The position numbers and the translations under genes were made by a program. 43,610 bases of DNA, taken from Fibrobacter sp. GTDB taxonomy: Bacteria > Fibrobacterota > Chitinivibrionia > Chitinivibrionales > Chitinispirillaceae. Positions 1-19,128 of the stretch are shown piece after piece. Position 1 is the first letter of the stretch, and the number at the start of each line of letters is the position of its first letter. The stretch is taken from NCBI GenBank assembly GCA_012728995.1, contig JAAYEB010000009.1, positions 1 to 43,610 on the forward strand, written 5' to 3'. Below the pieces are notes generated by a model. That model ran no database searches and was not told where the DNA came from. It saw nothing but the letters and a program-made list of their open reading frames with translations.

Positions 1-740
1 GTTAAAAAGTAAACGCCACTAGATAGGGCGGGTATTTTTTCTGGGATTTTTATGATTTCATTTTGAGTGCCTTTTAAAGCTTTCTTAGAAATCAGTTTGG
101 CAATTCTACGCCCGGACAGTGAAACAAGTTCGCAATTAATTATTGATGCCTTGGAAAGGTTAAAATGAATCTTGATCTGGTTATTGTTCATTTTTAAAGA
201 AGGTGCCGAAAATGTATTTCGTTTGTTTCTTGTCAAAATGCTTGTGGTATCATTGATAGTGGCGTAGAATTGAAGTTCACCTGAGGAGTTCAATATATTA
301 ATTCTGGTTTTATCAGAGTTGGTTTCATAAGAAATCTTGTTAATCACAGATCCTTTTTGTTTTACTTCAAAGTTATTTGAAGAATTTTCGCTGTAGCTGA
401 TTTGTCCGCCCAGCATATCCAGATTAAACTGATCTAAAACAGAGAGATTTGTTGAAGAACCATCTTTATTATAATTGGAAGTTAAAACGGTATCCCCATT
501 AAAGTTAATCGAATACTCTTTATTACCATCGATTAAAACTTCACGAATAAATGTGCTGTCACTCATGTAAATAGAACGTGAAATATTATTTCCGCTGTTA
601 TCATATTTAAAATTAATAAACATGAGATGATTGTTTGCAGAGTCAAAAATATCCACTTTTTCGATTGGATTAACAAAAACCGTAAAAGGTAATAAAAGGA
701 CTAATAAAAGCGCATAACTGCTTTTAAAAAGATATTTCAT
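1..740 (-). CDS. Partial secreted protein with T9SS-like C-terminal sorting domain
   Basis: An open frame starts at ATG 740-738 and runs without a stop to base 1, so about 246 codons are present and the last residues lie outside the window. The N-terminus (MKYLFKSSYALLLVLLLPF) is a good signal peptide: a lysine, then a long hydrophobic core. The middle is polar, beta-rich and Asn/Ser-rich, and I recognise no enzymatic domain in it. The visible C-terminus reads ELVSLSGRRIAKL, then PALSSGVYFL, which is the hallmark of a Por/T9SS-type sorting domain that directs export and surface attachment. The gene follows the RidA-like gene on the same strand with a 121-base gap, so it may belong to the same minus-strand group. 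Function is unknown; only secretion is supported. Confidence 0.75.
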   Translation of the reverse strand, partial: MKYLFKSSYALLLVLLLPFTVFVNPIEKVDIFDSANNHLMFINFKYDNSGNNISRSIYMSDSTFIREVLIDGNKEYSINFNGDTVLTSNYNKDGSSTNLSVLDQFNLDMLGGQISYSENSSNNFEVKQKGSVINKISYETNSDKTRINILNSSGELQFYATINDTTSILTRNKRNTFSAPSLKMNNNQIKIHFNLSKASIINCELVSLSGRRIAKLISKKALKGTQNEIIKIPEKIPALSSGVYFL

Positions 741-2090: not shown

Positions 2091-2131
2091 ACAAAAATAT
2101 TCCACTCCGGTTTTTGAAAACCGAAGTGGAA
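2091..2131 (-). terminator. Rho-independent terminator of the HzsA-related gene
   Basis: On the minus strand a near-perfect hairpin (arms 2125-2131/2117-2123 against 2100-2106/2108-2114, one mismatch, about 14 pairs, very tight loop) is followed by TATTTTTGT. It begins 24 bases after the stop codon of the HzsA-related gene and lies 48 bases or more before the start of the RidA-like gene. It should end or attenuate transcription between the two. Confidence 0.75.
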
Positions 2132-2154: not shown

Positions 2155-4833
2155 TTAACGTACAACTGAAATCAATCTTTCTCTGGTTGAATGATTGTCA
2201 GAAATTTTAGCAATATAAATTCCCCTGCTCAATGAAGAAGGCAAAGGTATATACATTGACCGTTTTGCATTTGTATTTTCAGCAAAGATATTGGATTTAT
2301 TTAACTGCCTCCCACAAAGGTCAAGAAGTGTAAATTCAATATCTCCTGTTGCTGTAACGAAAAGGATTCTTTCATTTGCCAGGAATTTGATATTGGAAAT
2401 ATGTTTGTTTGTGTTTATTGATTTGATATCATCAGAGTTAAAATAACTGATTGAAGTTGGATTGTATAAATCTTGTAAATATTGACCATCAGCTACAAAC
2501 TCTTCTATGTTAGTTTTTTCAATTTTCTCGTGGTTGATGCGATTTTCCAGAGCTTTCATAAAAGCAGTAGAATCTGAAGATTTCATAAAGTCTGTATAGT
2601 ATCCTGCATGTGGAATACATAGATCAATCCAGCAGGCAATGATCTCTTTTTCGGATTGTGAAAGGGTTGCTCCTTTATGACCACCTTCAATTTTCTGCAT
2701 CAATTTGCTGTTTTTTGAACTTTCACTAAAATATGCACGTTTAGGAGGGGCGGGATCATAAAGGTTAATCCATTTGACATATGCTCCTTCGTCCTCAGTA
2801 AGTGATATATAGGAGCGGGTCCAATATTTTTTAGAAGGACGATTAAGTGCATGTTTATTTTGATTGAGATCCTCACACCATATAAGATCACCACGAAGAT
2901 CAGGTTTTTGTGTACCATCATGACATTCTATACAATGTTCATCCCAGATCGGCTGAACAAATTTGCGGTAATTGAAACCTTCATTTTCAATGCCATTAAA
3001 TGGTGTCAATGGCTTAGGCCCTGTTTGACCTGCAATAGACTGGCCTTTTGGTGGAAAGCTTTCATTTTTGTCTTCATGGCATCCATAACAACTGAAAGTT
3101 TCACCTGGCATGAGAGTCGACCAGCTTCTCATGGTCTGAACGCAATAACCATTTTCATCAAGTAACTGAAAGTAAACCGGTTCAAGGGCAGGAACTTCAA
3201 AAGATGCTGAACCGTCCTCATAAACAGGGGCTTCACCTAAAACCCGTTTAGCTTCCCATGATCCGGTCCATCGCGAAACAGGTGTCATTTGGTATCCGTC
3301 GTAATCGCTTCCAGTATATCCGACCTGATGGTTTATTCTGTAATCAAGTGCGACAACACGAATTTTCTTGACAGTTCCTTGAGGAACCTGCTTGCCACCG
3401 CTTTGTACCATACCAGTACCATAATGAACGTCTTCAACCGTAAACACGCCGGTTTTTTTAGTCCAGTCTGCACCTACTCTGGGCATTGGGGGTTTTTCTC
3501 TTTCTTTTAGAAGCACAGGCTGGCTTACAGACTGATCATCCCACGCAATAAGTTCCCGTTCGCCATCAACATTCATAAAATAGAGTTTAAAAAGTTTTGT
3601 TGATGAACTAGGTCTCCAGGAGATCAGGAAATTTTCTTCATCAAGGGGCCAGGGATTTTGAAATGTAAACTCAACACCACCATCGGTACCAAGGAAAAAA
3701 GTGTTTTTAGGCTCTCTTTTTGGAGCTACAAGCTGAACAGAACTTGAACTGTTCCGGCCCAGATAGGGATCTATTACAACAAGTTCACCATTGTAGGTTG
3801 CGTGATGCCCACTAATGACAGCCATAATTTTACTGCTACCAGGAATTTGACGTCCATGAATGATAGTCATGGGCCATGTTAACTGATTTCCAAAATATTC
3901 AGTTTGATTGGTACCATCGGGATTCATGGTAAACAGTCCCATAGCATTCATCAAGGTACGGTCATTATATTCCCATCTGGTGTACATTACCTTTCCGTTA
4001 TCCATTAGAACCGGATAAAATGTATGTACCTGATCGTAACACACTCTTCGGAGATATTTTCCACTTTCGTGACACATATAAAGATTGCTGGTTTGGTTGT
4101 ATGCACAGTCTACCATGCCAAAGCATCTTGATGAATTGAACATTATATCACCATTCTGCAGATAGCACGGCTCATAATCAGATACTTTGAGTCCTGATGG
4201 GTTATGTGTAATTTGCCGTTGTTTTGAGGGATCATCTAATTCAAGTTCAAAAAGTTTAAAACCTTCAGGCATGGCGAAACCGCCTCTTGAAGAGCCAGAA
4301 CCTTTGCACCAGGCAAAAAGAAGTTTTTTACCATCAAATGATACACAAGGATCTTTTAAAACACCACTTGGATCTTCAAGAATGTACGAATGTTTTGAAT
4401 AATAGTCCTTAAATTCCAGTAAACAGAGGGCGGATTGGTTTTCCCATTCAGTAGCTACGGACATCGGCCAAAGTCCTTCTGTAAATCCTACCAATGGACC
4501 ACCCATGTTATGGTGTTTTGCAAAAATGATTTTCTGAATATCTTCGGCATAAGGTTTCATTCTGTACACACGCCGCCAATGACAGGCACTCTCGAAGGAA
4601 CCGTCACATTTTTCTGCGTATTCTGCAGGAAGAGACGCTTTAATTTGTTCAGCAGTCCCACCCTGAGCTTTCCAGTCATCGACTATCTCTTTTGGAATGG
4701 AACCAGGCATCTTTTCATCAATTATACTGGAAAAACTAGTTTTTACAGATAATGAAACAAAAGCTACGACTAACAGCCAAATTTTAAGCTGCTTGTTCAC
4801 ACATTTTAGAACAGCTAAATTTGATGAACACAT
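2155..4833 (-). CDS. HzsA-related exported dihaem cytochrome c, paralogue 1
   Basis: This 892-residue protein is related to the alpha subunit of anammox hydrazine synthase. The start at 4833 is chosen because AAGGAGGAG lies just before it and it gives a signal peptide (core about 17-31); an in-frame start at 4941 lacks both. The mature protein has a PD40/TolB-like propeller region (about 160-430, including SGHHATYNGELVVID) and then a middle domain with MRSWSTLMPGETFSCYGCHE. It carries two haem-attachment motifs, C582-Y-G-C-H586 and C634-I-E-C-H638, the second in a planctomycete-type cytochrome context. The tail (about 810-892, ending SSLSRGIYIAKIS) is T9SS-like. It should be an exported, possibly surface-anchored redox protein. 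No HzsB/C partner is visible, so hydrazine synthesis is not implied. Its paralogue lies at 13245-15920. Confidence 0.85.
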   Translation of the reverse strand: MCSSNLAVLKCVNKQLKIWLLVVAFVSLSVKTSFSSIIDEKMPGSIPKEIVDDWKAQGGTAEQIKASLPAEYAEKCDGSFESACHWRRVYRMKPYAEDIQKIIFAKHHNMGGPLVGFTEGLWPMSVATEWENQSALCLLEFKDYYSKHSYILEDPSGVLKDPCVSFDGKKLLFAWCKGSGSSRGGFAMPEGFKLFELELDDPSKQRQITHNPSGLKVSDYEPCYLQNGDIMFNSSRCFGMVDCAYNQTSNLYMCHESGKYLRRVCYDQVHTFYPVLMDNGKVMYTRWEYNDRTLMNAMGLFTMNPDGTNQTEYFGNQLTWPMTIIHGRQIPGSSKIMAVISGHHATYNGELVVIDPYLGRNSSSSVQLVAPKREPKNTFFLGTDGGVEFTFQNPWPLDEENFLISWRPSSSTKLFKLYFMNVDGERELIAWDDQSVSQPVLLKEREKPPMPRVGADWTKKTGVFTVEDVHYGTGMVQSGGKQVPQGTVKKIRVVALDYRINHQVGYTGSDYDGYQMTPVSRWTGSWEAKRVLGEAPVYEDGSASFEVPALEPVYFQLLDENGYCVQTMRSWSTLMPGETFSCYGCHEDKNESFPPKGQSIAGQTGPKPLTPFNGIENEGFNYRKFVQPIWDEHCIECHDGTQKPDLRGDLIWCEDLNQNKHALNRPSKKYWTRSYISLTEDEGAYVKWINLYDPAPPKRAYFSESSKNSKLMQKIEGGHKGATLSQSEKEIIACWIDLCIPHAGYYTDFMKSSDSTAFMKALENRINHEKIEKTNIEEFVADGQYLQDLYNPTSISYFNSDDIKSINTNKHISNIKFLANERILFVTATGDIEFTLLDLCGRQLNKSNIFAENTNAKRSMYIPLPSSLSRGIYIAKISDNHSTRERLISVVR

Positions 4834-5447
4834 GGTCTCCTCCTTCTGGGGTAATGTTTCAGATTTTTCTGGATCTATTCCCATTGTAAGAACAATAACC
4901 TGAAATTGGTGAAAAACAACTTTGATGCTCAGACATCTCAACCGTATAAGTTATTTGGATTTTACCCATATGTTCAATAAAAATTAAAAGAATTTGTCAA
5001 AATGTGGAACTTATGAACTACATGAAAAAGACAATCACTAATCTTCATTATACCCTATTATACCGTTTAAATAATAATTTTAAATTAATTGATATTAGAT
5101 TCTTTAATTGATATCATTAGTATAAAAGTTATAAATGATTACAAATGAATCATTTTTTAATATACCTCAAATATAAAGAATAAATAGAAAAAATTGTCAG
5201 GTTTAGTAAGATTTATGTTGAAAATGTTGAACTATGGTTCTACATGGAACCATGTATTTGGAGTTTTGGTGGACTTCAAATTTGAAAAAAATGAAAATCG
5301 GTTCAACTATGCGGAAAACGACTAAGATTTGATTATCAACGTGACTTCATCTGGTTCGTTTCGCCAGTATCAGCATGATTATCTGCTGTGGCCTTAATGA
5401 TTTAAACTTTATTGAAATTTCAATGTACCAAAACGCATTTTTATATA
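4834..5447. promoter_or_regulatory. Divergent intergenic region with a dyad and TATAAT boxes
   Basis: About 610 bases separate the HzsA-related gene (minus) from the ABC transporter (plus). A perfect dyad, ATGGTTC (5234-5240) and GAACCAT (5247-5253) with a six-base spacer, could be an operator. On the minus strand two TATAAT boxes lie between 5050 and 5063. GGTTGAGAT on the minus strand (4943-4935), about 100 bases before the HzsA start, also occurs upstream of the second HzsA paralogue and of the gene at 23474. I see no coding sequence here. Confidence 0.35.
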
Positions 5448-6371
5448 ATGCCTCCGATAATTAATGTTTCTAAATTAAACAAATCGTTTTCCAAATATTC
5501 AATTCTGGATAATATTTCGATTCAAATTGAACCTGGTACTGTATATGGTCTTGTAGGACTTAATGGGGCTGGAAAAACCACACTGTTGCGTTTGTTGACA
5601 GGATTATTAAAACCGGATAATGGAACTGTTTCGGTTTTAAACTGTAATCCATGGGAACATAAAAGAGAATACTATCAGAAAATTGGAGTAGTACTTGAAA
5701 ATGACGGTTTCTGGGGCAACTTAAGTGTTAAGGATAATCTTGCAATTTATGCTTCTGCCAAAGGGTTGAATAGTTCTGAAGTTGAAAAATATATTGATGA
5801 GTACTGGAAAAATTCTGAAATCCATAGCAATACCAGGAAAGTAAAAACTCTCTCCAGAGGCCAGAGAATGCAATGTGGCTTGTGCAGAGCTTTTATGGGA
5901 TGGCCTGAAGTTTATTTTCTGGATGAACCGGCATTGGCTCTTGATATGACAGCCTATGAGCACATGTGTTCAATAATAAGGCATGCTCAAAAAAGAGGAG
6001 CTGCAATGATTATAAGTTCACATCAACTTGATACAATAGATAAACTCTGTGACAGAGTGGGCATTTTACAGGATAAACGAATTCAGGAATTGGAAAAAGA
6101 GAAACCGGATTCGGTTTCAGGTTGGCAGATTGTTACAGAGAACCTTGAGCAATATGGAAAAATAATTAAAGATGCCGGTGGTGAAGAGATCGTGTATGAT
6201 AACGGATATTATTTCAAAATCGACACTCCAAAAACAATCCCTTTGATTATAAAAAATCTTGTTGCTGTCGATTGTAAAATTTATGAAGTAAAACGGTTGC
6301 AGGACGGATTCAGTAACACAATCAGGAACTATTATAACAGCAAAAAAGAGGGTTTTAATGATAGATATTAA
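5448..6371 (+). CDS. ABC transporter ATP-binding protein
   Basis: This 307-residue ATPase powers the membrane protein encoded next to it. All nucleotide-binding motifs are present: Walker A GLNGAGKTT (37-45), signature LSRGQ (135-139), Walker B VYFLDEP (155-161) and the H-loop histidine in IISSHQ (192). The glutamate after the Walker B aspartate is intact, so it should be active. The last 90 residues form a C-terminal extension typical of ABC-2 exporter ATPases. The frame also opens at TTG 5412; I prefer ATG 5448 because homology begins there, though neither has a clear ribosome binding site. It overlaps the permease gene by 14 bases. The cargo cannot be told from sequence. Confidence 0.88.
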   Translation: MPPIINVSKLNKSFSKYSILDNISIQIEPGTVYGLVGLNGAGKTTLLRLLTGLLKPDNGTVSVLNCNPWEHKREYYQKIGVVLENDGFWGNLSVKDNLAIYASAKGLNSSEVEKYIDEYWKNSEIHSNTRKVKTLSRGQRMQCGLCRAFMGWPEVYFLDEPALALDMTAYEHMCSIIRHAQKRGAAMIISSHQLDTIDKLCDRVGILQDKRIQELEKEKPDSVSGWQIVTENLEQYGKIIKDAGGEEIVYDNGYYFKIDTPKTIPLIIKNLVAVDCKIYEVKRLQDGFSNTIRNYYNSKKEGFNDRY

Positions 6372-7023
6372 CGGGGTCAGGACTGTTTTAATTAAAGAAT
6401 GGAAATGTTTTGTGGGGTCTGACCGCTCTGTATTTATACTATATATGATTCTTGTAGTATCATGGAGTTTTCTTATTGCGAATAGTAATACACAGATAAA
6501 TACCGGGTCGTTATGGCTGGTTTTTTTTTCAGTAATTGTAGCTGCCAATTTTTCAAATACGGTTTTCATATCAGAACGGGTTACAGGAACACTGGAAATT
6601 TTTATGACATCAGGAATCACCAGAGACAGCATTTTATTTGGAAAAATGGTATTTGTATTCCTGATGAGTTCCTTTATGGGTTTATTATGCATTATGTTTG
6701 GAATAACATGGCAGACCATATTTCCGGAATTCGGGACTACATCAATTGGGGTTTATGAAATAATTGTATATTTATCCTCAACGGTTTTGAATATTGGAAG
6801 CAGTGCTTTTCTTTCTGTTAAAATGGCTAATCCCCGGCTGCTTCATTTTGCAAATATTCTAATTACTGCAGGAGTCGTAATAGTTTATATAGCAGTTTCC
6901 GGGTTTCTTTACCTGCCACACTATCTGTTACCTGCTGTTTTGATATGCGGTGGAATTGTTATGAGTATATTTGCAAGAAGAGAATTTAACAGTGAAAAGA
7001 TTCTCCAGCCGGTAATTTTTTAA
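6358..7023 (+). CDS. ABC-2 type membrane permease
   Basis: This 221-residue protein has about six hydrophobic spans (around 25-45, 52-70, 102-122, 133-153, 166-185 and 188-206) and the ISERVTGTLEIFMTSGITRDSILFGK stretch after the second span, a familiar ABC-2/CcmB-like coupling region in which an enzyme-like ERxxGTLE motif contacts the ATPase. The gene starts inside the end of the ATPase gene, so the two are translationally coupled and form a half-size exporter. Substrate is unknown; small exporters of this kind move lipids, drugs, haem-related compounds or polysaccharides. The position beside haem-binding HzsA-related genes is suggestive only. Confidence 0.8.
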   Translation: MIDINGVRTVLIKEWKCFVGSDRSVFILYMILVVSWSFLIANSNTQINTGSLWLVFFSVIVAANFSNTVFISERVTGTLEIFMTSGITRDSILFGKMVFVFLMSSFMGLLCIMFGITWQTIFPEFGTTSIGVYEIIVYLSSTVLNIGSSAFLSVKMANPRLLHFANILITAGVVIVYIAVSGFLYLPHYLLPAVLICGGIVMSIFARREFNSEKILQPVIF

Positions 7024-7030
7024 CGGCTGG
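7005..7030 (+). terminator. Hairpin at the end of the ABC-2 permease gene
   Basis: CCAGCCG (7005-7011) pairs with CGGCTGG (7024-7030) around a 12-base loop that contains the stop codon. The stem is GC-rich in an AT-rich setting, but no T-run follows, so intrinsic termination is uncertain; it may only protect the 3' end. Confidence 0.35.
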
Positions 7031-7215
7031 ATTGTAATCACTATTCAGGCGAAACGATTATAAAAATTTCAGAATATTTGTCCGGTTTGATCAGTTTGGT
7101 TGTGTTTTTACTGTGATTTGATAAAAAAAACGACTATACCTATATTGAAGAGGGTACAAAGATAAAGATGGTGAATTCGGTTTCAGATCTTAACAGTTTA
7201 TAAAAAGGAGTATGT

Positions 7216-7362
7216 GTGAATATTGAATGTAAATTAAATGAGAATCGGAAAAAATGTACATGTCCAGAAGCTACCTGCAAACGTTATGGAGCCTGTTGCG
7301 AATGTGTTGCTTATCATCGTGAAAACGGAAATCTCCCTCATTGTCTCAAAAAGAACAAATAG
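7216..7362 (+). CDS. Small cysteine-rich protein, DUF6485-like
   Basis: A 48-codon gene starts at GTG 7216, five bases after AAAAAGGAG. The protein has seven cysteines in the order C5, C14, C16, C21, C27, C28, C30 and then C43, giving CTCPEATC, GACCECVAYHRENG and LPHC. This pattern, with the CCEC-x-x-YHR-x-x-x-x-LPxC core, is what I remember of the short DUF6485 family; it looks like a metal (zinc or iron) binding knuckle. There is no signal peptide, so it should be cytoplasmic. It stands alone, between the exporter and the GH57 gene. Function is unknown. The longer frame at 7238-7459 on the same strand overlaps it but has no binding site and is not real. Confidence 0.7.
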   Translation: MNIECKLNENRKKCTCPEATCKRYGACCECVAYHRENGNLPHCLKKNK

Positions 7363-7531
7363 TAATATGAACCATACTCGTTTACGATTGATATTTATAA
7401 CATGGAAAGTAAAGGTTCAAAATAGTAAAATTTTCTGCAGAAAGTTCACCTTGAATTGACTTGCAAGAACAAGTGTCATTGAATCTTATTTATTCTGTAA
7501 TATATCCTGAAAACTTTATCAATGCAAGAGC

Positions 7532-8707
7532 TCAGGAAATGCTGACATTGTGGATTGCAGAATCTATTAGTTCTTCTGCCAGATCCAGGTCCTGATGGCA
7601 TCTGTGGACCCACGCTTCTCCCCAGAAAACATTGCAGCTTGTTTCTGAGCGCAAAATTCGCCAGTAGGCTTCTTCGAGGTCATTTTTATCAATTTTATTA
7701 TTTGAATCTGACAATTGATGAAATTTATCACTCACTTTTTTTATCCGATCAAGAGTATTTTTCTGTCCCTGTGAACCGGTCCACTGAATAAATCCTTCAC
7801 CATGATGCCATCCGGTATTCCATGCTCCGGTTTTAACATTCACGTATCCATGTGCTCCGTGGGTATCCAGATAATTATCTATAAATACTGGTTTAATATT
7901 ACATAATCCAGCTCTTGCTTTATTCATGAATTCTTTGTAGAAGTACTGCCAGAAATTACTTTTTTCGTTTGTATTTCTGAACCACCCTCCATTTTCACCA
8001 TCAGTACAAGTCGTTACAAGTGGTACAAAATTGCAGAATTTTGTACGTTGATTTACTTCATAGGAAAACCATCCCCAGTCCATCCCGGCTTCCTGAGCAT
8101 CAGAAAGTTCTCTGTCACGTACGATTACTATGATTTCATCACTGCCATATTTCGCGAAATGTGGTTGATAATGGATCTCTTCCCAACTCATTTTTTCGAG
8201 GGGTTCTATATATTTGCTGTCTACAAGTACATATCTGTAACCCAAACTTTTTAACAGAGGAATCATTTCCATACAGAATCCCATTTCAGGTGGCCAGAAA
8301 CCTGAAAAAGAGGTACGCCAGAAAACGTGTTTTCCAATTCCGAGCCATCTGGTACACTGTTCTTTCCAGTCATTTTCCGGGGTAAGAGGGAAAACAGGAT
8401 GATAATAACCAGTACCGAGTATATGGAAAAGATTTGTGTTTTGCAGGAACCATAAAAGATCACCAACTTTTGTAATTCCATAAACCTTTTCCTGAAAATC
8501 AGGATTGATCAAAGTTTCAAGAAGTGTTCCGGATAAAGAGAGATGAACCCTTGCGATATCCTCATAACCCCACAAGGAACGTGGAATACGGTCCATTGCC
8601 CATAGAATTTCTTTTGCTTCCCACTGCTGGTTTTCTAAAAGATATTCAAGATTTCCAGAAGGTTGATGAAGATTTAATACCAGTGCATGATTAATAAGTG
8701 TACTCAT
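7532..8707 (-). CDS. GH57 family alpha-glucan glycoside hydrolase
   Basis: This 391-residue enzyme carries the ordered GH57 signatures: LNLHQPSG (12-18), GTGYYHPVFPL (98-108), FWPPEMGF (137-144) holding the expected glutamate region, and TCTDGENGGWF (234-243). GH57 enzymes act on alpha-1,4/1,6-glucans as amylases, 4-alpha-glucanotransferases or branching enzymes. The protein is short for the family and has no added binding module. There is no signal peptide, so it acts in the cytoplasm, which fits storage glucan metabolism rather than extracellular starch use. AGGAG precedes the ATG. It is a single gene, but a six-hairpin glycosidase, a GT4 and a trehalose synthase at 32-43 kb may work on the same glucan pool. 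Confidence 0.85.
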   Translation of the reverse strand: MSTLINHALVLNLHQPSGNLEYLLENQQWEAKEILWAMDRIPRSLWGYEDIARVHLSLSGTLLETLINPDFQEKVYGITKVGDLLWFLQNTNLFHILGTGYYHPVFPLTPENDWKEQCTRWLGIGKHVFWRTSFSGFWPPEMGFCMEMIPLLKSLGYRYVLVDSKYIEPLEKMSWEEIHYQPHFAKYGSDEIIVIVRDRELSDAQEAGMDWGWFSYEVNQRTKFCNFVPLVTTCTDGENGGWFRNTNEKSNFWQYFYKEFMNKARAGLCNIKPVFIDNYLDTHGAHGYVNVKTGAWNTGWHHGEGFIQWTGSQGQKNTLDRIKKVSDKFHQLSDSNNKIDKNDLEEAYWRILRSETSCNVFWGEAWVHRCHQDLDLAEELIDSAIHNVSIS

Positions 8708-9097
8708 GTTTTGTGCTCCTGATATGTTGTGTTAAAATCAGCATAATAATTAACCTGAATAACAACTATTTTTTTATACTAATGGTGATAGCACCCCTTT
8801 ATTGCTCAAAAGACGCTTCCGGTCGTTAAACATTTGATTTTTACAGGACGCTACAGAGATTTACGATTATTTTAAAGAAATAAGGAGAATAGGTATAATA
8901 TACTAAATTGCAGGATCTTTTTTACAGATTTGCTCAAATTTAATGAACAACTAGCAATTGTCCGTTATGGTCGGTGTCAGAACCCCCTTTTTCTTCTTTG
9001 GGCCGGATCTGATAATCAGAAGTAGAAACTGTTACAGCATTCAACTCAAATGCTGGGGAATTAAAACGGGTTCAAGGCAGTTACAGGAGATATAAAG
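8708..9097. other. Intergenic region between divergent GH57 and beta-helix genes
   Basis: About 390 bases without a plausible gene. It must hold promoters for both flanking genes. I see no strong promoter, dyad or repeat; the ribosome binding site AGGAGA for the plus-strand gene lies at 9085-9090. Confidence 0.5.
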
Positions 9098-10864
9098 GTG
9101 ATCATTGATAAAAAATTAATTGCGTTTTTAAATGTCGTTATTTTCATGCGTATGGCAAATTGTGAATTGGGAATTCCTGAAAGGATTACAGTGTGGAAAC
9201 CGGGAATACCAGGAAGCGTACCTGCCATATCTGAACCGGTTAAAAATGTGTTGAATTATGGTGCCGACAACAAGGGAGTATCGGATTGTAAAAATGCCGT
9301 TATTGCTGCAATAAATTCTGTTCCGGATGAGGGTGGTGTTGTTTACTTTCCTGAAGGAACATATTTATTAACTGGTAAAATTGAAACAGGGAAGAGTAAA
9401 GTTGTTTTTCGAGGTGACGGCTATAATAAAACCAAAATTCTATGCAATCATGAAGATCTGTGTTTTGAAATCATTACTTATAAAAGAGGAGAATGGCAGA
9501 ATCTTATTAGCGGATATGACAAAGGCTCATTTTCAGTAGTAGTAGAGGATGGAAGTAAATTTCATGCCGGAGAGTTTGCAGAGGTTCAACAGAACAACGA
9601 TTCTGCTCTCATGTATACAGATCCGGAATGGGTAACAGACTGGGCCCAAAATGCAGTCGGACAATTATTTGAAATCGTAAATATTGATAAGGATACTGTC
9701 TATTTTCAAAACCGGATTCACCATGGATTCAGAAAAGATTTGTTGCCTGTCATTCGGCCACAGAAATTTGTAACCGAAGTAGGTTTTGAAAAGTTCTACA
9801 TTGAAAGATTGAAAAGTGGAAACAGTACATTTCAGTTCAAGAATGCTGCTTATTGCTGGATAAAAGAAATAGAAAGTAAAAATACATATAAAGCTCATGT
9901 AAACAATTCTACCACTCTGGGGTGTGAATATCGTGACAGTTATTTTCACAATTCATTTTCATATGGTGGAGGCGGGTGTGGATATGGAGTAGAATTTGGA
10001 TTTCATGCAACAGATGGACTATGCGAGAATAACATTTTTGATTCTTTACGACATTCGATGATGGTACATTTAGGAGCCACAGGTTGCGTTTTTGGTTACA
10101 ATTATTCAATTAACCCAGTTCAGGGCGAGAACAAGGAGAATCTTAATGATGTATGGAATCCGCCCGATATTTCACTTCATGGTCATTATGCACAGATGAA
10201 TCTTTTTGAAGGGAATATTGTTCAGGAGGTTGGAATAAGTGATTATTGGGGTCCTATGGGGCCGGGTAACACTTTTTTAAGAAATCTCATTGAAGGGGAG
10301 GGGGTGTTTTTAAATGACCATAGTGATTATCAAAACCTGATTGGAAATACATATTATTTCTGGGGTGATGACAGTACATCGATTGGCACACTAAGGCATG
10401 GAGAAAAAGTTAAGAATGAGTTAATTTGGGATAGCAGCTTGATACATCAGATACCAGAGACATTTTATTTGGATTCAGTTCCATCTTTTTATGCCAATCT
10501 GAATTGGCCTTCAACAGGATCTTCTATTGCTGTAAATGTTATTCCGGCACAGATCAGGTGGAATAACAGTAAGGTTATTACAAATCTTTCAGGAAGGGAA
10601 ACTGAATTGATTTCTAAAAAGAATCGTTCTGTTATTTACAATTTAAATTTCGATTCAGGCAGAATTCGATTGTTTTTACAAAAAGAAACAGAAACAATTA
10701 ATCTTCTGGATATACGCGGGAGAATTATTAAGAAATGGTTCATTCCTGTTAAAGAAGCTTCAAAATATGAACTTTTTTTCAATCGCAATGTTTGTCGGGG
10801 AATTTATCTTTTACAGATCAAACATAAGCATGGAATGATCCATCACAGGATTTTGTTTCCTTGA
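9098..10864 (+). CDS. Secreted right-handed beta-helix protein, pectate lyase superfamily
   Basis: The 588-residue product starts at GTG 9098, seven bases after AGGAGA. A short signal peptide seems to end near residue 22. From about 48 it has the N-terminal Pectate_lyase_3 pattern NYGADNKGVSDCKNAVIAAI, then GGVVYFPEGTYLL, followed by repeated beta-helix coils to about 500 (many short N/G-rich turns, HATDGLCENNIFDSLRH, LFEGNIVQEVG). The last 75 residues, with LLDIRGRIIKKW and RGIYLLQI, form a T9SS-like sorting domain. Such helices hold polysaccharide lyases and hydrolases; I cannot assign substrate or catalytic residues. It lies just before a GH10-fold gene, so plant or microbial polysaccharide binding or cleavage is plausible. 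Confidence 0.75.
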   Translation: MIIDKKLIAFLNVVIFMRMANCELGIPERITVWKPGIPGSVPAISEPVKNVLNYGADNKGVSDCKNAVIAAINSVPDEGGVVYFPEGTYLLTGKIETGKSKVVFRGDGYNKTKILCNHEDLCFEIITYKRGEWQNLISGYDKGSFSVVVEDGSKFHAGEFAEVQQNNDSALMYTDPEWVTDWAQNAVGQLFEIVNIDKDTVYFQNRIHHGFRKDLLPVIRPQKFVTEVGFEKFYIERLKSGNSTFQFKNAAYCWIKEIESKNTYKAHVNNSTTLGCEYRDSYFHNSFSYGGGGCGYGVEFGFHATDGLCENNIFDSLRHSMMVHLGATGCVFGYNYSINPVQGENKENLNDVWNPPDISLHGHYAQMNLFEGNIVQEVGISDYWGPMGPGNTFLRNLIEGEGVFLNDHSDYQNLIGNTYYFWGDDSTSIGTLRHGEKVKNELIWDSSLIHQIPETFYLDSVPSFYANLNWPSTGSSIAVNVIPAQIRWNNSKVITNLSGRETELISKKNRSVIYNLNFDSGRIRLFLQKETETINLLDIRGRIIKKWFIPVKEASKYELFFNRNVCRGIYLLQIKHKHGMIHHRILFP

Positions 10865-11112
10865 TATATGCAGAATATAAATGACTGATTATGAATTAAT
10901 TACAAACCATTTCTTTAATAATAAAACAGACCAGTTCAATATTTGTGTATATCGTTGAAAACCATATCTCCCGTTTGAAAAAATTATCCAACTGGTAATT
11001 ATACCATTGCTGATCTTGCTTCCGGTTCTCTCGGATGTTATCTTCATTTTGTCCTGTTATTTGATTCTTTATATAAACCTGTTGTCGATTTTGGTTAAGA
11101 GTGTGGGGGATT

Positions 11113-12642
11113 ATGAATCAAACTATATGTAAACAGTTTTTTTTCTTTATTTTGCTGTTGATTCAAATCTGTTTTTTAAAGGAAATAATGACGGAAATAT
11201 CTGTGGAAGATTATGATTACAGCCACAGAAAACGTGATTGTGAAATAAAGCTTGTTACCTCTAATGGACAGCCGGTTCCTGAGGTTTTGATCGGTATTGC
11301 ACAAATACGTAGCGATTTTGCATTCGGAGGAACGGTAAGTGCAGAGGCATTCGATACCCTTGGTGATTCATACGGAGAAAGGTTTTTGGATTATTTCGAT
11401 GTTGGTACTCCTGAAAATGAGATGAAGTGGAATTATGTAATGAAATGTTCTGAAAAGTGTGATCCGGATTTTTCAAAAGCAGATTTTCTTGTTGACTGGC
11501 TTTTTAAAAATAACATAGCTGTCCGTGGTCACAATCTTTTCTGTAATGAAAGTGAGGATCTGATTCCTGAATGGACCCGTAATCTTGAAAACGCTGCATT
11601 CAAACAGGCTATGCTGGAGCATATCAGTTCTGCTATGGAGCATTATAAAGGAATGGTGGTTCAGTGGGATCTTATCAGCGGCATTTGCCACGGGACAGAC
11701 GGTTCATTTTCAACAAGTAGCATGCTTGAAAACAAAAGCGGTGACCAGGATATTTTCAACTGGATATTGGACGAAGCTCGCAAAATAGACACTGTTGCCG
11801 ATTTGGTCATCAGCGCCCATAATTTGATAACCTCCAATGATATGACCATTATTGACCAATATATAAACAAGGTTAAGCCATTAAGCAGCAAGTTTCAAAT
11901 CATAGGTACTGAGAGTCATTTCGGTGAGAGTATGGATAAAGATTCCTATGAACCAAAAATAAACTATCTTGCAGAGCAACTCGAAAAACCTGTATTGTTG
12001 ACTGATGTTGATTTCAGTTTTGATATCAATCAGGCACCGGATAAAGTAGAGGAGTTGATGCGTACCTGTTTTGCTAATCCCAATGTTGGAGGTCTCATTA
12101 TGGGAAGCTGGTATCAACATTCTATGACACGTAGTGATGTTACCAGTTATTTTGTTGATTCCATGAACAACGAAACCCCTGCTGGTCAGCGTTGGCGTGA
12201 AGTTCGGGCAGAGTGGAAAACTGAAGCGAGTGGTTATACCGATGAATCCGGTAAGTTCAGTTTCAATGGTTTTCAGGGTAAATACATGATAATTGTCAGT
12301 TGTTTTCTCGACTCTTTTTATCTTGAACCTGGTGAGGGAGTTAAAACAATAGAAGTGGGATATTTTCCAAATTTTACTGTAGATTACAAATCGTCCAGTA
12401 TTAAAACAATCGAAATCATGGTCAATGGAATAATAGTACCAGTCAAGCTGCCTTCACGTTACAATAGACAATTGTTTCTGACTACCTATTCACTGTCAGG
12501 AAAACAGTTGTCCCGTTCTCCGGTGAACATAAAAAACAGAAAGTACCAGATTACACCTTCTATCCCATACTGCCGCATAATGAGGATTGAGACAGCCGAT
12601 CGGTTGCCGCTTTATACAGGTAAAATTATGGCAGCTCATTGA
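11113..12642 (+). CDS. GH10-fold secreted protein with missing catalytic residues
   Basis: A 509-residue protein with signal peptide (core about 8-22). ATG 11113 follows a G-rich site; GTG 11101 is possible. After a small beta domain (VTSNGQPVPEVLIGIAQIRSDFAFGG) it has the GH10 xylanase path: TPENEMKW (99-106), VRGHNLF (137-143), VQWDLISG (183-190), IIGTESHFG (263-271), LLTDVDFS (295-302) and GSWYQHS (331-337). In active GH10 enzymes these sites read WDVVNE and ITELD. Here the acid/base position is Gly190 and the nucleophile position is Asp298, so xylanase activity is unlikely; it may bind carbohydrate instead. The last 130 residues hold a DESGKFSFNGF beta domain and a degenerate sorting-tail-like end (TTYSLSGKQLSRSPV). 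Confidence 0.78.
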   Translation: MNQTICKQFFFFILLLIQICFLKEIMTEISVEDYDYSHRKRDCEIKLVTSNGQPVPEVLIGIAQIRSDFAFGGTVSAEAFDTLGDSYGERFLDYFDVGTPENEMKWNYVMKCSEKCDPDFSKADFLVDWLFKNNIAVRGHNLFCNESEDLIPEWTRNLENAAFKQAMLEHISSAMEHYKGMVVQWDLISGICHGTDGSFSTSSMLENKSGDQDIFNWILDEARKIDTVADLVISAHNLITSNDMTIIDQYINKVKPLSSKFQIIGTESHFGESMDKDSYEPKINYLAEQLEKPVLLTDVDFSFDINQAPDKVEELMRTCFANPNVGGLIMGSWYQHSMTRSDVTSYFVDSMNNETPAGQRWREVRAEWKTEASGYTDESGKFSFNGFQGKYMIIVSCFLDSFYLEPGEGVKTIEVGYFPNFTVDYKSSSIKTIEIMVNGIIVPVKLPSRYNRQLFLTTYSLSGKQLSRSPVNIKNRKYQITPSIPYCRIMRIETADRLPLYTGKIMAAH

Positions 12643-13244
12643 TTGCAGCAGGTCTGGCATTAATTGTAATGAGTAATTGAGTTTGACAATATTATTTTCC
12701 GAAATGGATAGCAGAGAATTGAGTTACTATAATATTATCGATTCAATTCCAAACAGCCAAATCCACGCGATTCACCAATTGTTCATTAATTGAATTACAT
12801 AATTGTTGCATACTAATAATAATTAATGACTTAAAAGATAGTGACTTCGGAAAAACTTTTGTCACTTACTATAATGTATGTCAACACGCGGTTTCATACA
12901 TGCTAAAACTTGCTATAACAATTGGATTGAAGTGAAAATGCAAAATACTGATGATAGTTTTCTCTTTATGCTGGTTAGTATTTGATGGAGTTAGTTACGT
13001 TTTTTCTGTACAGATAGAGTTCTACAATTCCATTCAATTATTTATCCTCTCTTATGTGGAATATTAGATCCACAAAAACCATGTAATAAATACTGCCATA
13101 TGGAACAATTTAAGAACTAATTGTTTATATTAATATAATAATCTAAAGTATGGTTGAGATACTGATTACGATTTAATTTAATCGCTTATTTCAATAACTG
13201 AAAAATACATAATAATTTACATCACCTTACCCGAGGGGGGGATA
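12643..13244. promoter_or_regulatory. Long upstream region of the second HzsA-related gene
   Basis: About 600 very AT-rich bases with no credible gene. It contains the dyad TGTGGA (13055-13060) / TCCACA (13069-13074) and, 85-93 bases before the HzsA start, GGTTGAGAT (13152-13160), the same nonamer found upstream of HzsA paralogue 1. The ribosome binding site is GAGGGGGG just before 13245. A long leader could carry regulation, but I recognise no riboswitch. Confidence 0.35.
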
Positions 13245-15920
13245 ATGAATAAAAAAGATTTTTTCAATCTGAAAACATCTTTTATACAGAAAGTTGTATT
13301 CACTGCAATTATTACAGGCTTTTTTCTGGTACCTGTTATAAATGCTGCTATTGATGAAACAATGCCATCCAATATTCCCAGTGAAATCATTGATGACTGG
13401 AGAGATCAGGGCGAGACGGCAGATCAAATTAAAGCATCTCTTCCTGCAGAATATGCAGAAAAATGTGACGGTTCATTCGAGAGTGCCTGTCATTGGCGAC
13501 GGGTGTATCGAATGAAACAATTTCCTCAGATGGAAACCATCATGTTTGCCAGACATCATAATTTAGGTAGCACAGCTATAGGATTCTGGGTTAATGTTGG
13601 TTCCTCTGATGTTACTGATGCAAATTTTAAAGCTGAAGGTGCCCTCTGTCTTCAGAAATTCGAAAATTACTATTCCCAATATGAAGAAATTTTAACAAAA
13701 AATGATGCTTGCGTAAAGGACCCCTGTATCTCCCTTGATGGTAAAAAGGTTGTTTTTGCAATGTCAGGGAACCGTAAGGGTACAGGATACAGGCTTTATG
13801 AAATGGAAATCAATAATCCGGGATCAATCAAACAGCTCACCGAAAACCCTGCAGGCTTGACTGTAGCGGATTTCGAACCATGCTATCTACCCAATGGAGA
13901 TATCATGTTTTCTTCCACACGCTGTTTTGGTACGATTGATTGTGGATGGCAGGCTACTTCGAACATGTTCATTATGGACAGCACAGGGAAATATATGCGT
14001 CAGGTCGGATTCGATCAGGTCCATACATGTGGTCCGGCTTTGTGTGGTAATGGTACTGTTCTTTACTGTCGCTGGGAGTATAACGACCGCGATATCGCAA
14101 ACATAATGGGATTATTCAGGATGAATCCTGATGGCTGCCAGCAAACTGAAGTTTTCGGAAACCAGACCACATGGCCAATGAACCTGATTCACGCTCGACC
14201 TGTTCCAGGTAATAATAATAAGTTTTTCGCGATTGCAAGTGGACACCATGGTTCTTATTCGGGTGAAGTTTGCGTAATTGATAACACCCTGAATACCAAT
14301 GGAGTGGAACATATCACAATGGTCAGCCCACCGCGTAAAACGGAAACCCTGGATAAAAACGACACCTGGGCGATGGGAGGCGTGTATAGGAATTCAGAGT
14401 ACCCGTATCCTTTAAATGAAGAGTGGTATCTTGTTTCCTATCGCGATGAAGGACAAGAGAGTCTTTTTGGAGGTATAAGCACCAAAAAGTACAGGATCTA
14501 TTTAAAACATGTTGATGGAAATAGCAGGGAACTTCTTGCCTGGGGAGACGGATCTTTACACCATCCTGTTGTTGTTGCACCCTGGAAAGATATCTGGGGA
14601 TCTGACCCATTTCCAATTGTTGAACAGGCAAATTACAATGACAGCATGGGAATTTTTACTATGCAGGATGTCTATTATGGTGAGGGCATGAAAGGCATTG
14701 ATAAAGAAAGTGGCGTAGCCAAGTCAATTCGTGTTATTGCACTTAATTACCGTGTTGCGGGATCTTGCGATCAATCTCAGAATCTCGGTATGGTTTCTGG
14801 TAATGCACCAAGAGGAGTTATCTTTAGTGCTCCAACTCTTTGCCCGATTGCTATCTATGGTGGCTCATGGGATGCAAAGGAGGTTCTGGGTGAGGCAAAA
14901 ATTTATGAGGATGGTTCTGCGGCATTCAAGGTACCAGCAAGAAAACCTGTTTATTTACAGGTGCTTGATTCAAATGGATGTTGTATTTCAAGTATGCGCA
15001 GTTGGGCTACGCTTATGCCGGGTGAAACATTTTCCTGTTACGGATGCCATGAAAACAAGCGTGAAGGTATTCCACCATCTGGTATCGCAATGGCTGGCCA
15101 GGCCAAGCCACTCGAAAAACCTTTAGGAATTGAAGACAAACCGTTTGATTTCGGAGAATTCGTTCAGCCGATTCTTGATGAACATTGTGTAAGTTGTCAT
15201 GGATCAAATCATCAATCCGGTTTCGATTTGCGTGGAGATCTGGAATATGATAATAGTGCAAAAAAATACTGGACAAAATCCTACAAGTCCCTGATGAAAG
15301 GGGTTAGCAGTTCATACGGGAATAAAGCAATTCGTCTCGCTACAATATTTTCCCCTGCAGAACAGATGCCTCCAAAATCATTCGGTTCAACACAAAGCGG
15401 AATGATTAAAAATGTCCTCGAGGGCCATAATGGAGTCAATCTTTCCGAGGATGAGATCAAAATTCTGGCTTGCTGGATCGACCTTGAGGCTCCATTTGCA
15501 GGAACCTATGACAGTTATATGAATGATGGAGATAAACAAAAATATAAGGAACTGGAAAGAAAAGCACAAAAATGGTATGATATAGAAGCACAGAATATCA
15601 AGGATTTTGCAGCAACTCAAGAGCCTGTAGCGGTTATACATCAAGACCATAACAGCAAAAAAGCTGTTACCATTACCAAACCATCCAGTATCGGGTACAT
15701 AGAGTCAGCACGTGCTCTGGTTCTGAAGAATTTCTACAAAGGGAATTTGACACTTGTGGATCTCAGAGGAAAAGTGGTTTCACGTTACAATCTGTCAAAT
15801 CTGAATACTCAAGGTAGTATTACCGTTTCATTGCCAGCATCTCTAAGTACGGGATTATATATTGCCCGACTTGAAGGTGTAAATGGAATTGAGCAGACAA
15901 AGATATCTATTACACAATAA
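13245..15920 (+). CDS. HzsA-related exported dihaem cytochrome c, paralogue 2
   Basis: This 891-residue protein is the paralogue of the gene at 2155-4833 and has the same plan. A signal peptide (cleavage near NAA, 33-35) is followed by a propeller region with PD40-like repeats and SGHHGSYSGEVCVID (332-346), then RSWATLMPGETFSCYGCHE with haem motif C598-Y-G-C-H602, and a second motif C648-V-S-C-H652. A T9SS-like tail closes it (LTLVDLRGKVVSRY, PASLSTGLYIARL). Family knowledge: in anammox HzsA these two haem regions form hydrazine from NO-derived hydroxylamine and ammonia, but with HzsB and HzsC, which are absent here. Residues 60-91 are almost identical to paralogue 1, far more than the rest. 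It is a single-gene unit with its own strong terminator. Confidence 0.85.
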   Translation: MNKKDFFNLKTSFIQKVVFTAIITGFFLVPVINAAIDETMPSNIPSEIIDDWRDQGETADQIKASLPAEYAEKCDGSFESACHWRRVYRMKQFPQMETIMFARHHNLGSTAIGFWVNVGSSDVTDANFKAEGALCLQKFENYYSQYEEILTKNDACVKDPCISLDGKKVVFAMSGNRKGTGYRLYEMEINNPGSIKQLTENPAGLTVADFEPCYLPNGDIMFSSTRCFGTIDCGWQATSNMFIMDSTGKYMRQVGFDQVHTCGPALCGNGTVLYCRWEYNDRDIANIMGLFRMNPDGCQQTEVFGNQTTWPMNLIHARPVPGNNNKFFAIASGHHGSYSGEVCVIDNTLNTNGVEHITMVSPPRKTETLDKNDTWAMGGVYRNSEYPYPLNEEWYLVSYRDEGQESLFGGISTKKYRIYLKHVDGNSRELLAWGDGSLHHPVVVAPWKDIWGSDPFPIVEQANYNDSMGIFTMQDVYYGEGMKGIDKESGVAKSIRVIALNYRVAGSCDQSQNLGMVSGNAPRGVIFSAPTLCPIAIYGGSWDAKEVLGEAKIYEDGSAAFKVPARKPVYLQVLDSNGCCISSMRSWATLMPGETFSCYGCHENKREGIPPSGIAMAGQAKPLEKPLGIEDKPFDFGEFVQPILDEHCVSCHGSNHQSGFDLRGDLEYDNSAKKYWTKSYKSLMKGVSSSYGNKAIRLATIFSPAEQMPPKSFGSTQSGMIKNVLEGHNGVNLSEDEIKILACWIDLEAPFAGTYDSYMNDGDKQKYKELERKAQKWYDIEAQNIKDFAATQEPVAVIHQDHNSKKAVTITKPSSIGYIESARALVLKNFYKGNLTLVDLRGKVVSRYNLSNLNTQGSITVSLPASLSTGLYIARLEGVNGIEQTKISITQ

Positions 15921-15942: not shown

Positions 15943-15982
15943 AACAACCAGACTATTATTTCTAGTCTGGTTGTTTTTTTTT
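15943..15982 (+). terminator. Strong rho-independent terminator after HzsA paralogue 2
   Basis: AACAACCAGACTA (15943-15955) pairs perfectly with TAGTCTGGTTGTT (15963-15975) around a seven-base loop, and the T-run continues to 15982. Thirteen uninterrupted pairs plus nine T's make this a textbook terminator 23 bases after the stop codon. Confidence 0.95.
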
Positions 15983-17560: not shown

Positions 17561-19123
17561 ATGAGTAAATGTAAAATGTTGTTTGTAAAGAGTTTGGATA
17601 AACGGGTATTGTTCTCGACAGAGGAGTTTGCCAGAGAAGTATTAAATGATCCACATTATGATAATATCCCCTTTGTTGATAAGGGTTCAATTCAAAGGGC
17701 ATTCGATCTTTATGGTGATAAACTGGTTTCTTTAGATCAGGATGTTAACTCTGCTTTAGGTGGGATAACACTTAATATTGAAGGACATTTTCTGGCTTCA
17801 AATCTTCCTGAAATAGAAACGATCGTAACTGATCAATCCTGTGACACTTATATGTTGGACCAGATCCTTGGGGATAATCAGGATATTACACACATAGGAT
17901 TAACTGCATATGTTTCTGGGATGGATAAAACGATTGATTTAATAAAGCATATTCAGGAAAAATATCCTGAAAAAGAGCTGTATGTTGGAGGTGTTGGCGC
18001 TGTTTATCCTCATATTGAAGCTGTAATTAAAGAAAAGAATAAGATATGTACAGGAGAAGGTGTAAGTTTTTTACGTAAGCATTTAGGACTTTCTGAATTG
18101 AAATCAGAAGAAATGAAAATAACATCAGTGCATGGACAGGCTGCATTTATCCCTCTTTCCAGGCCTGCCATTTACGTTGTTACACAGCTTGGGTGTTTTA
18201 ACAACTGTGATTTTTGTATAACAAACAAAATGCACAGGTATAATCCTTTTTCAAAGTCTGAACAGATCATTAATTATTTTGATCAATTACTAAAAAATTC
18301 GAAGCAGGATGAATTTGTAGTACTATGTGAACCCAATGCATTCAATCCGGTTGCAGTATGGAAGCGGGTGTTTAACTTTTTTATAGAGAACGCAAATTCT
18401 TATGATAACAAGATTTTTCTATTTGGGCCAAGTTCGATTAAAACACTAAGTCAATTTGATCTGGAAAAAATACAGTATGAGAGCCCGTTAAAGATATTCT
18501 TTGTGAATTATGGAATCGAAAAAACAGTAGGAGAAGGTTACGAAAAAAATGGGGGTGACCCCAAAGGGATGATCCGGCATATGAACAGACTTGGGATAGT
18601 TACCAATCACAGTTATATTGTTGGACTTCCGGAACAAAATTCAGAAATGGTTGATGAAGAAATCAGGAACAATCTGGAATATGAGTCTGATTTCATCAAC
18701 ATAATTACATTCAAACCGATACCAAAAACAACACTTTATGAACAGTTGGAGAAAAAAAACAGAATAATTACCATGAAAGTGCCTCCTGAGTTTCTTTATG
18801 TTGATGGTTATTTACCATTTGATCATGAGTATTTTGGTCCAGGTTTTACGTTGCTGGAGCAGACATTCAAGGCTTATTATGAAAACGAAAAAGGGATTGT
18901 AGACATATGCAATAATGTATGTAATAAACTTATTCGTTTATGGGAAATATGCGGATCGCAGGTTTTGCTTCAATTGGCAGAGAAGTATCTTGAAACCAGC
19001 AGAAAAAGATTGCCATCATTTTCGAAAAGAATGCCATCGGAAGTTACAAATGAATATAAACGTCGTCTTTTAGATACACAGAAGCGTTTTGATAAAACAC
19101 TAAACAAGGTTCTGGTAAAATAA
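17561..19123 (+). CDS. Radical SAM protein with B12-binding-like N-terminal domain
   Basis: A 520-residue protein. AAGGAG lies seven bases before ATG 17561. Residues about 85-175 resemble a cobalamin-binding Rossmann domain (THIGLTAYVSGMDKTIDLI, YVGGVGAVYPHIE, CTGEGVSFLRK), though without a visible DxHxxG, so base-off cobalamin binding is doubtful. The radical SAM core follows with C212-F-N-N-C216-D-F-C219, the three cysteines for the 4Fe-4S cluster, and later GLPEQN and ITFKPIPKTTLYEQL, as in Elp3/NirJ-like cores. The C-terminus (430-520) is helical and unassigned. It is followed after five bases by a methyltransferase, so they are surely cotranscribed. The substrate is unknown; the locus could modify a peptide, lipid or small molecule. 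Confidence 0.82.
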   Translation: MSKCKMLFVKSLDKRVLFSTEEFAREVLNDPHYDNIPFVDKGSIQRAFDLYGDKLVSLDQDVNSALGGITLNIEGHFLASNLPEIETIVTDQSCDTYMLDQILGDNQDITHIGLTAYVSGMDKTIDLIKHIQEKYPEKELYVGGVGAVYPHIEAVIKEKNKICTGEGVSFLRKHLGLSELKSEEMKITSVHGQAAFIPLSRPAIYVVTQLGCFNNCDFCITNKMHRYNPFSKSEQIINYFDQLLKNSKQDEFVVLCEPNAFNPVAVWKRVFNFFIENANSYDNKIFLFGPSSIKTLSQFDLEKIQYESPLKIFFVNYGIEKTVGEGYEKNGGDPKGMIRHMNRLGIVTNHSYIVGLPEQNSEMVDEEIRNNLEYESDFINIITFKPIPKTTLYEQLEKKNRIITMKVPPEFLYVDGYLPFDHEYFGPGFTLLEQTFKAYYENEKGIVDICNNVCNKLIRLWEICGSQVLLQLAEKYLETSRKRLPSFSKRMPSEVTNEYKRRLLDTQKRFDKTLNKVLVK

Positions 19124-19128
19124 AAATC

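Follow-up and report, generated by a model that had tools for sequence, protein, structure and literature searches.

HzsA-like dihaem proteins in the window

The window analyzed here is a 43,610-nucleotide stretch of DNA from a Fibrobacter sp. draft genome (GenBank contig JAAYEB010000009.1), and it encodes two relatives of HzsA, subunit A of the hydrazine synthase of anammox bacteria. These proteins, named copy 1 and copy 2, had been picked out in an initial annotation, made from the sequence alone, as secreted dihaem paralogues in a non-anammox setting. Both open reading frames (ORFs) are found at the proposed positions (Table 1), copy 1 on the minus strand, which was left unstated at that time. 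Each copy contains two CxxCH motifs, from which haem binding is predicted, and a hydrophobic N-terminus in agreement with the proposed signal peptide.

The HZS_alpha middle domain (PF18582) was detected in both copies with E values of 6e-32 (copy 1) and 7.5e-28 (copy 2), far over the curated cut-off, and was absent from 14 control genomes in a whole-genome profile search. By sequence, Kuenenia HzsA (5c2v_A) is the sole solved structure matched by copies 1 and 2. For the AlphaFold model of copy 1 (predicted local distance difference test, pLDDT, 82.5; predicted template modelling score, pTM, 0.81), the clear best matches by Foldseek are 5c2v_A (E = 9e-29) and 5c2v_D (E = 4e-28), over 820 aligned columns, and the HzsA middle domain as well as the overall fold are recovered. 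On this evidence, which goes beyond chance, copies 1 and 2 are true HzsA homologues, middle domain included. The initial annotation had proposed a search with PF18582 and a structural comparison with Kuenenia HzsA as checks, and both (the latter for copy 1) came out in favour of the link to HzsA.

The haem pockets and distances were assessed through alignments, not model coordinates. The SGHH motif, originally taken for a retained HzsA feature, is instead a mark of the non-anammox relatives, since different residues occupy this position in anammox HzsA. Loss of the second haem was considered for some paralogues and rejected, since CX4CH stands there instead (one row checked; two more in the alignment). 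The paralogues concerned are L035, L062 and L074, with for example CVKSGCH at the second-haem site, and two haems may be kept in them. A degenerate pattern search alone retrieved 352 HzsA-like relatives in reference genomes.

Table 1. Features of the window discussed in the text (window coordinates; aa, amino acids; T9SS, type IX secretion system)
Feature	Position	Strand	Basis or remark
c2, small secreted protein with T9SS-like tail	3..740	-	truncated by contig end
c4, chorismatase (FkbO/Hyg5)-like, 393 aa	862..2043	-	catalytic Glu kept
Terminator-like stem-loop between copy 1 and c4, 14 pairs	2100..2131	-	hairpin prediction
HzsA-like dihaem protein copy 1, 892 aa	2155..4833	-	ORF, PF18582 and fold; first gene of conserved cluster
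T9SS-like C-terminal tail, copy 1	2155..2364	-	TIGR04183, 14.8 bits
Haem motif CIECH, copy 1	2920..2934	-	equivalent of haem alpha-II
PF18582 (HZS_alpha middle domain), copy 1	3073..3378	-	110-113 bits
Haem motif CYGCH, copy 1	3076..3090	-	equivalent of haem alpha-I; anammox Tyr591 not retained
c8, GH10-like protein paired with copy 2	11101..12642	+	catalytic Glu positions altered
HzsA-like dihaem protein copy 2, 891 aa	13245..15920	+	ORF, PF18582 and sequence match
PF18582, copy 2	14712..15053	+	97-100 bits
Haem motif CYGCH, copy 2	15036..15050	+	motif
Haem motif CVSCH, copy 2	15186..15200	+	motif
T9SS tail, copy 2	15732..15917	+	TIGR04183, 24.5 bits
Terminator-like stem-loop after copy 2	15943..15975	+	hairpin prediction

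A conserved gene cluster with an HzsBC-like partner

Copy 1 heads a cluster that, by gene clustering around the relatives, consists of the genes for the HzsA-like protein, c4, c2, c1, c3, c6 and c7, in slightly varying order, and that recurs, entire or mostly, in 8 or more other Fibrobacterota genomes. The window corresponds to contig C52 of the draft genome (4.97 Mb, 97.65% complete), which stops within the cluster, after c4 and c2. The missing genes c1, c3, c6 and c7 were located on another contig of this genome, C159, right at its end. Their order and orientation match there, and we infer that the two contigs join. Proteins c6 (ResB) and c7 (CcsA) form a System II pair for haem c attachment; with the CcsA of a relative as query, the only match in the genome is the cluster's own CcsA. 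No family match was obtained for c3, whose model is strand-rich but poor (pLDDT 45, four sequences), and it is presumably an outer-membrane-barrel-like protein.

The protein c1 is composed of a beta-propeller and a dihaem-peroxidase part and matches both HzsB (5c2v_B, 1e-44) and HzsC (5c2v_C, 9e-26); therefore, it is the counterpart of HzsBC, a fusion found in some anammox species. It also matches dihaem cytochrome c peroxidases (CcP). The gamma His144 of HzsC is lacking in c1, with Trp in most Fibrobacterota copies and other residues in other lineages, and so is gamma Cys165. Trp at the His144 position is also found in CcP/MauG (PMC12758564).

Among 101 relatives, 13 of the 14 genomes that carry this type of HzsA also encode full-length c1, against none of the 87 that lack it; for c4 the counts are 12 of 14 and 4 of 87. 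The p-values of these associations, in which ten genera are involved, ignore kinship. Outside Fibrobacterota, c1 is present in all of the genomes tested (12 of 12). The proteins show the HZS_alpha domain, the canonical alpha-I haem motif and the genomic link to a fused beta-gamma homologue that characterize the non-anammox HzsA/HzsBC-like family. According to the initial annotation, HzsB and HzsC were absent. This holds inside the 43.6 kb and not genome-wide, where two HzsBC-like genes exist, one of them completing the copy 1 cluster on the other contig; the partners were missed because the window cuts the cluster.

In two genomes the partners are naturally fused, in single ORFs of 1415 aa located at L178:1666-5913 (plus strand) and L179:1629-5876 (plus strand), so HzsA does not stand alone as first supposed. 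The metagenome-assembled genomes (MAGs) are labelled Sedimentisphaerales and Spirochaetes, and the two fusion proteins are 75.6% identical to each other. Their HzsA half shares 64% identity with copy 2 and nests in the Fibrobacterota copy-2 clade, which suggests lateral transfer, while the HzsBC half is closest to planctomycete proteins. In the Sedimentisphaerales-labelled MAG, a chorismatase gene directly follows the fusion. Natural fusions of this kind are good evidence that the HzsA-like and HzsBC-like proteins work together physically.

Two further loci belong beside these observations. At L180:4081-8280 (minus strand), an HzsBC-like protein with an N-terminal extension of about 800 aa, lectin-like and Calx-beta-like by eye, adjoins an HzsA-like gene. 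At L177 (genome G033, contig C542), the cluster is decayed, with HzsBC-like remnants containing stop codons, short ResB and CcsA pieces, and a seemingly intact chorismatase-like gene alongside.

Differences from hydrazine synthase

The profile of the anammox HzsA equivalog (NF052339) has a cut-off of 800 bits. Copy 1 and copy 2 score 64.1 and 72.7 bits, whereas anammox HzsA proteins score 1351-1642 in a sample of 392 planctomycete genomes. Tyr591, the proximal ligand of haem alpha-I, is conserved in all five anammox rows shown, and its position is occupied by Asn in copy 1 and Arg in copy 2. At the position of the zinc ligand Cys303, which is not universal even in anammox, both copies have Gln. 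As for His772, the distal ligand of haem alpha-II, there is an almost invariant His nearby (H719 in copy 1), but the alignment contains indels. In the tree, anammox HzsA forms one separate clade with 100% support (SH-aLRT, the Shimodaira-Hasegawa-like approximate likelihood ratio test, only, in quick mode), and copies 1 and 2 are placed among Fibrobacterota sequences. No HAO/HDH-type octahaem protein (PF13447) was found in the genome, in a search without a working positive control. Judged by these sequence features, copies 1 and 2 are not hydrazine synthases, and true anammox is rejected on the basis of residues, scores and tree, in line with the non-anammox setting originally assigned.

The chorismatase-like protein and the T9SS-like tails

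In the profile search, c4 matches Hyg5 (1e-29) and FkbO (1.5e-24). Glu334, which acts in chorismatase catalysis (PMC7170507), corresponds to Glu376 in c4, and the surrounding CR..LVE.EG motif is retained. The protein is predicted to be a cytoplasmic chorismatase-like enzyme that would cleave chorismate, yielding a hydroxybenzoate. Gly240 and Cys327, which we take to be typical of 3-hydroxybenzoate-forming enzymes, are retained as well. A RidA deaminase was also considered for c4 and rejected, because the chorismatase profile match is far better; opposite the Arg that is presumably catalytic in RidA, no Arg is found in the pairwise alignment of c4 with RutC.

Sorting tails resembling those of the T9SS had been claimed for both copies and were found in both, above the TIGR04183 cut-off (23 bits) in copy 2 and below it in copy 1. 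In a mixed alignment, TIGR04183 matches 13 of 44 members and 0 of the 31 outside Fibrobacterota; the presence of a tail in all 13 Fibrobacterota rows was deduced from the equal counts. Relatives outside Fibrobacterota mostly end about 50-60 residues past the conserved WIDL motif. The genome encodes SprA of the T9SS translocon (TIGR04189, 208 bits, contig C422), the only component searched for, and SprA is also present in all relatives. Export of plant-polymer enzymes by the T9SS has been proposed for Fibrobacter (PMC6851124). Together, a surface location of the HzsA-like protein seems likely.

In some relatives outside Fibrobacterota, weak F5/8-type-C or DUF7402 domains, mostly just under the Pfam cut-offs, replace the T9SS tail (L100, L126, L148 and L141 at the C-terminus, L112 at the N-terminus). 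A distant third HzsA-like group without a T9SS-like tail, with its own conserved neighbourhood, occurs in Fibrobacterota family f11 (L042, L045, L046 and L057).

Proposed role and alternatives

Neither a heme-copper oxidase nor NrfA was found in the genome, which fits an anaerobic fermenter. The organism is probably fibre-degrading, and the polymer degrader presumed in the initial annotation agrees with such a fermenter-like genome. We propose that both copies belong to a repurposed, multi-haem redox complex with a surface-exported HzsA-like subunit, in a fermentative, Chitinispirillaceae-like polymer degrader; the chemistry of the complex is a hypothesis. Our probability for this reading is about 0.5. 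The roles first suggested (extracellular electron transfer, NO chemistry or oxidative polymer attack) are possible, though the residues of hydrazine synthase are absent.

The mechanism can be written as four steps of falling certainty, the last two put forward as hypotheses. The HzsA-like and HzsBC-like proteins would assemble into a single complex with four haems, attached by the ResB and CcsA of the cluster, and formation of such a complex is likely. The T9SS would then export the HzsA-like subunit to the cell surface. The complex may act as an oxidoreductase, in which the dihaem site of the HzsBC-like protein would be a peroxidase-like centre of the CcP/MauG type and the HzsA haem a second site. 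Finally, the chorismatase could supply a hydroxybenzoate used by or with the complex as substrate, electron donor or mediator, probably in the breakdown or sensing of plant polymers. Copy 2, with its GH10-like partner, would be a diverged paralogue of the same complex. In the most specific version, a surface four-haem enzyme of the HZS fold would use the chorismatase-made hydroxybenzoate as mediator or cosubstrate for redox reactions of plant polymers, or of their phenolic components, under anoxia. We regard that version as distinctly improbable; if true, it would be an anaerobic counterpart of mediator-assisted lignocellulose oxidation.

Several points weigh against the proposed surface complex. 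Both fusion MAGs come from one spring metagenome, and the join of C52 and C159 was drawn from gene order and content, not from reads. A terminator-like stem separates copy 1 from c4, so that co-transcription is not established; therefore, we speak of a gene cluster and not of a proven operon. The total of terminator-like stem-loops in the region is close to that of shuffled sequences. The copy 1 tail (14.8 bits) is below the TIGR04183 cut-off. The HzsBC-like partner has no T9SS tail, so that its contact with an HzsA-like protein exported to the surface lacks an explanation, and the complex might be periplasmic. The TIGR04444 score of c4 is 35.7 bits, below the cut-off of 325, and three genomes of the set have chorismatase-like genes with no intact HzsBC-like gene close by. 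The neighbours of HzsA-like genes include GH8 and GH2 (glycoside hydrolase, GH, families), glucuronoyl esterase, sulfatase and rhamnosidase genes, with 1-4 members each, for which no enrichment is claimed without a background set.

The alternative that we would take most seriously, although it is doubtful, is extracellular electron transfer, in which the surface HzsA-like dihaem protein would have no catalytic role and would carry electrons among the HzsBC-like cytochrome, the barrel and an external acceptor. The T9SS-like tail, the two haems per protein, the dedicated System II maturation and the barrel-like protein of the cluster would all suit such a role, and with neither heme-copper oxidase nor NrfA detected, another electron sink is plausible. 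However, two haems per protein are few for a transmembrane wire, many non-haem residues are strongly conserved across phyla at about 40% identity, which points to catalysis, and the chorismatase is left unexplained. The poor barrel model gives no support to a porin-cytochrome conduit either way.

Just behind it, and also unlikely, is the explanation that the tails are vestigial and both copies are common periplasmic cytochromes belonging to a periplasmic HZS-like complex, as in planctomycetes. The tailless HzsBC-like partner, the copy 1 tail under the curated cut-off and the tailless relatives outside Fibrobacterota would all be expected then. Nevertheless, tails are present in Fibrobacterota members of two distinct HzsA groups and in c2, and the tails score like those of neighbouring pectate-lyase-like and xylanase-like proteins.

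Detoxification of peroxide, or of nitric oxide or hydroxylamine, comes third and is improbable in our view; the HzsBC-like partner would contain the CcP/MauG-like centre responsible, and the HzsA-like protein would be an accessory subunit. This would agree with the match of c1 both to HzsC and to dihaem cytochrome c peroxidases, and with the Trp that most Fibrobacterota copies have in place of HzsC His144, as in CcP/MauG (PMC12758564), but other lineages have non-Trp residues there, and the surface tail, the chorismatase and the pairing of copy 2 with the GH10-like protein would go unexplained.

That the proteins form a true hydrazine synthase, and that Fibrobacterota would hence have an anammox-type metabolism, as proposed for Phycisphaerae with hzsABC-like genes, has an almost negligible chance: all three subunits have homologues that are encoded together, but NF052339 scores of 64 and 73 bits, the loss of Tyr591, Cys303 and HzsC His144 and Cys165, the separate, fully supported anammox clade and the lack of a detected HAO-type protein (with a silent control) speak against it, and the same reading was rejected on the same grounds for other homologues (PMC12758564).

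Relation to known systems

Pairs of HzsA-like and HzsBC-like proteins outside anammox have already been published, as clades I-IV (Hagglund et al. 2025; PMC12758564) and as Phycisphaerae and KSB1 genes (PMC10732223), so the setting is not wholly new for the family. In these pairs, too, the HzsA-like gene lies upstream of a fused HzsBC-like gene and the hydrazine-synthase residues are equally lost. In contrast, their described neighbours are CRTAC1 and ABC-transporter genes rather than genes for a chorismatase, a T9SS-tailed protein, a barrel, ResB and CcsA, and no HzsA-HzsBC fusion is described in the portions covered here. By word search, Fibrobacterota is not named in the text of PMC12758564.

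Compared with anammox HzsA (5c2v_A, NF052339), the copies share the propeller, the HZS_alpha middle domain with haem I, the C-terminal haem II and partner proteins homologous to HzsB and HzsC. They differ in being only about 21% identical, in the T9SS-like tail, the separate clade and the loss of Tyr591 and Cys303, and their partner is without HzsC His144 and Cys165. The known T9SS type A cargo of Fibrobacter (PMC6851124) resembles them in the TIGR04183-like C-terminal domain, SprA and the context of plant-polymer enzymes, while the cargo here is a predicted c-type cytochrome and not a glycoside hydrolase. With the FkbO/Hyg5 chorismatases (5ag3, 5a3k, 4bps), c4 shares the two-domain RidA-like fold region, Glu334 and a CR..LLVEIEG motif, but it is far under the TIGR04444 cut-off and is encoded beside a haem complex, not in a natural-product cluster. 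What appears to be new is the T9SS tail, the three-part fusion and, within the cluster, the chorismatase and dedicated haem lyase genes.

To our knowledge, no function is known for any HzsA-like family member outside anammox. The cluster offers handles on it, namely a constant set of genes, a small molecule predicted from the chorismatase, and HzsA-HzsBC fusions as a single chain. It also bears on the origin of hydrazine synthase, because non-anammox bacteria would combine homologous pieces that lack the anammox residues, and it cautions that hzsABC-like genes alone are not evidence of anammox.

Surroundings of copy 2 and other loci

Rfam gave no match within the window. The gene for the GH10-like protein c8 lies upstream of copy 2, and the same pairing of GH10-like and HzsA-like genes exists at four other loci. 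In c8, Gly and Asp stand at the usual catalytic Glu positions; therefore, it may bind instead of cut. A third HzsA-like copy (L004:11244-14021, minus strand, genome G000 contig C3) is directly upstream of an HzsBC-like gene, with a barrel-like gene as well, and it is flanked by GH5-like, esterase-like and GH30-xylanase-like genes. Further along the window, positions 17561-19734 (plus strand) encode a radical SAM protein that resembles BchE and, after it, a small methyltransferase-like protein.

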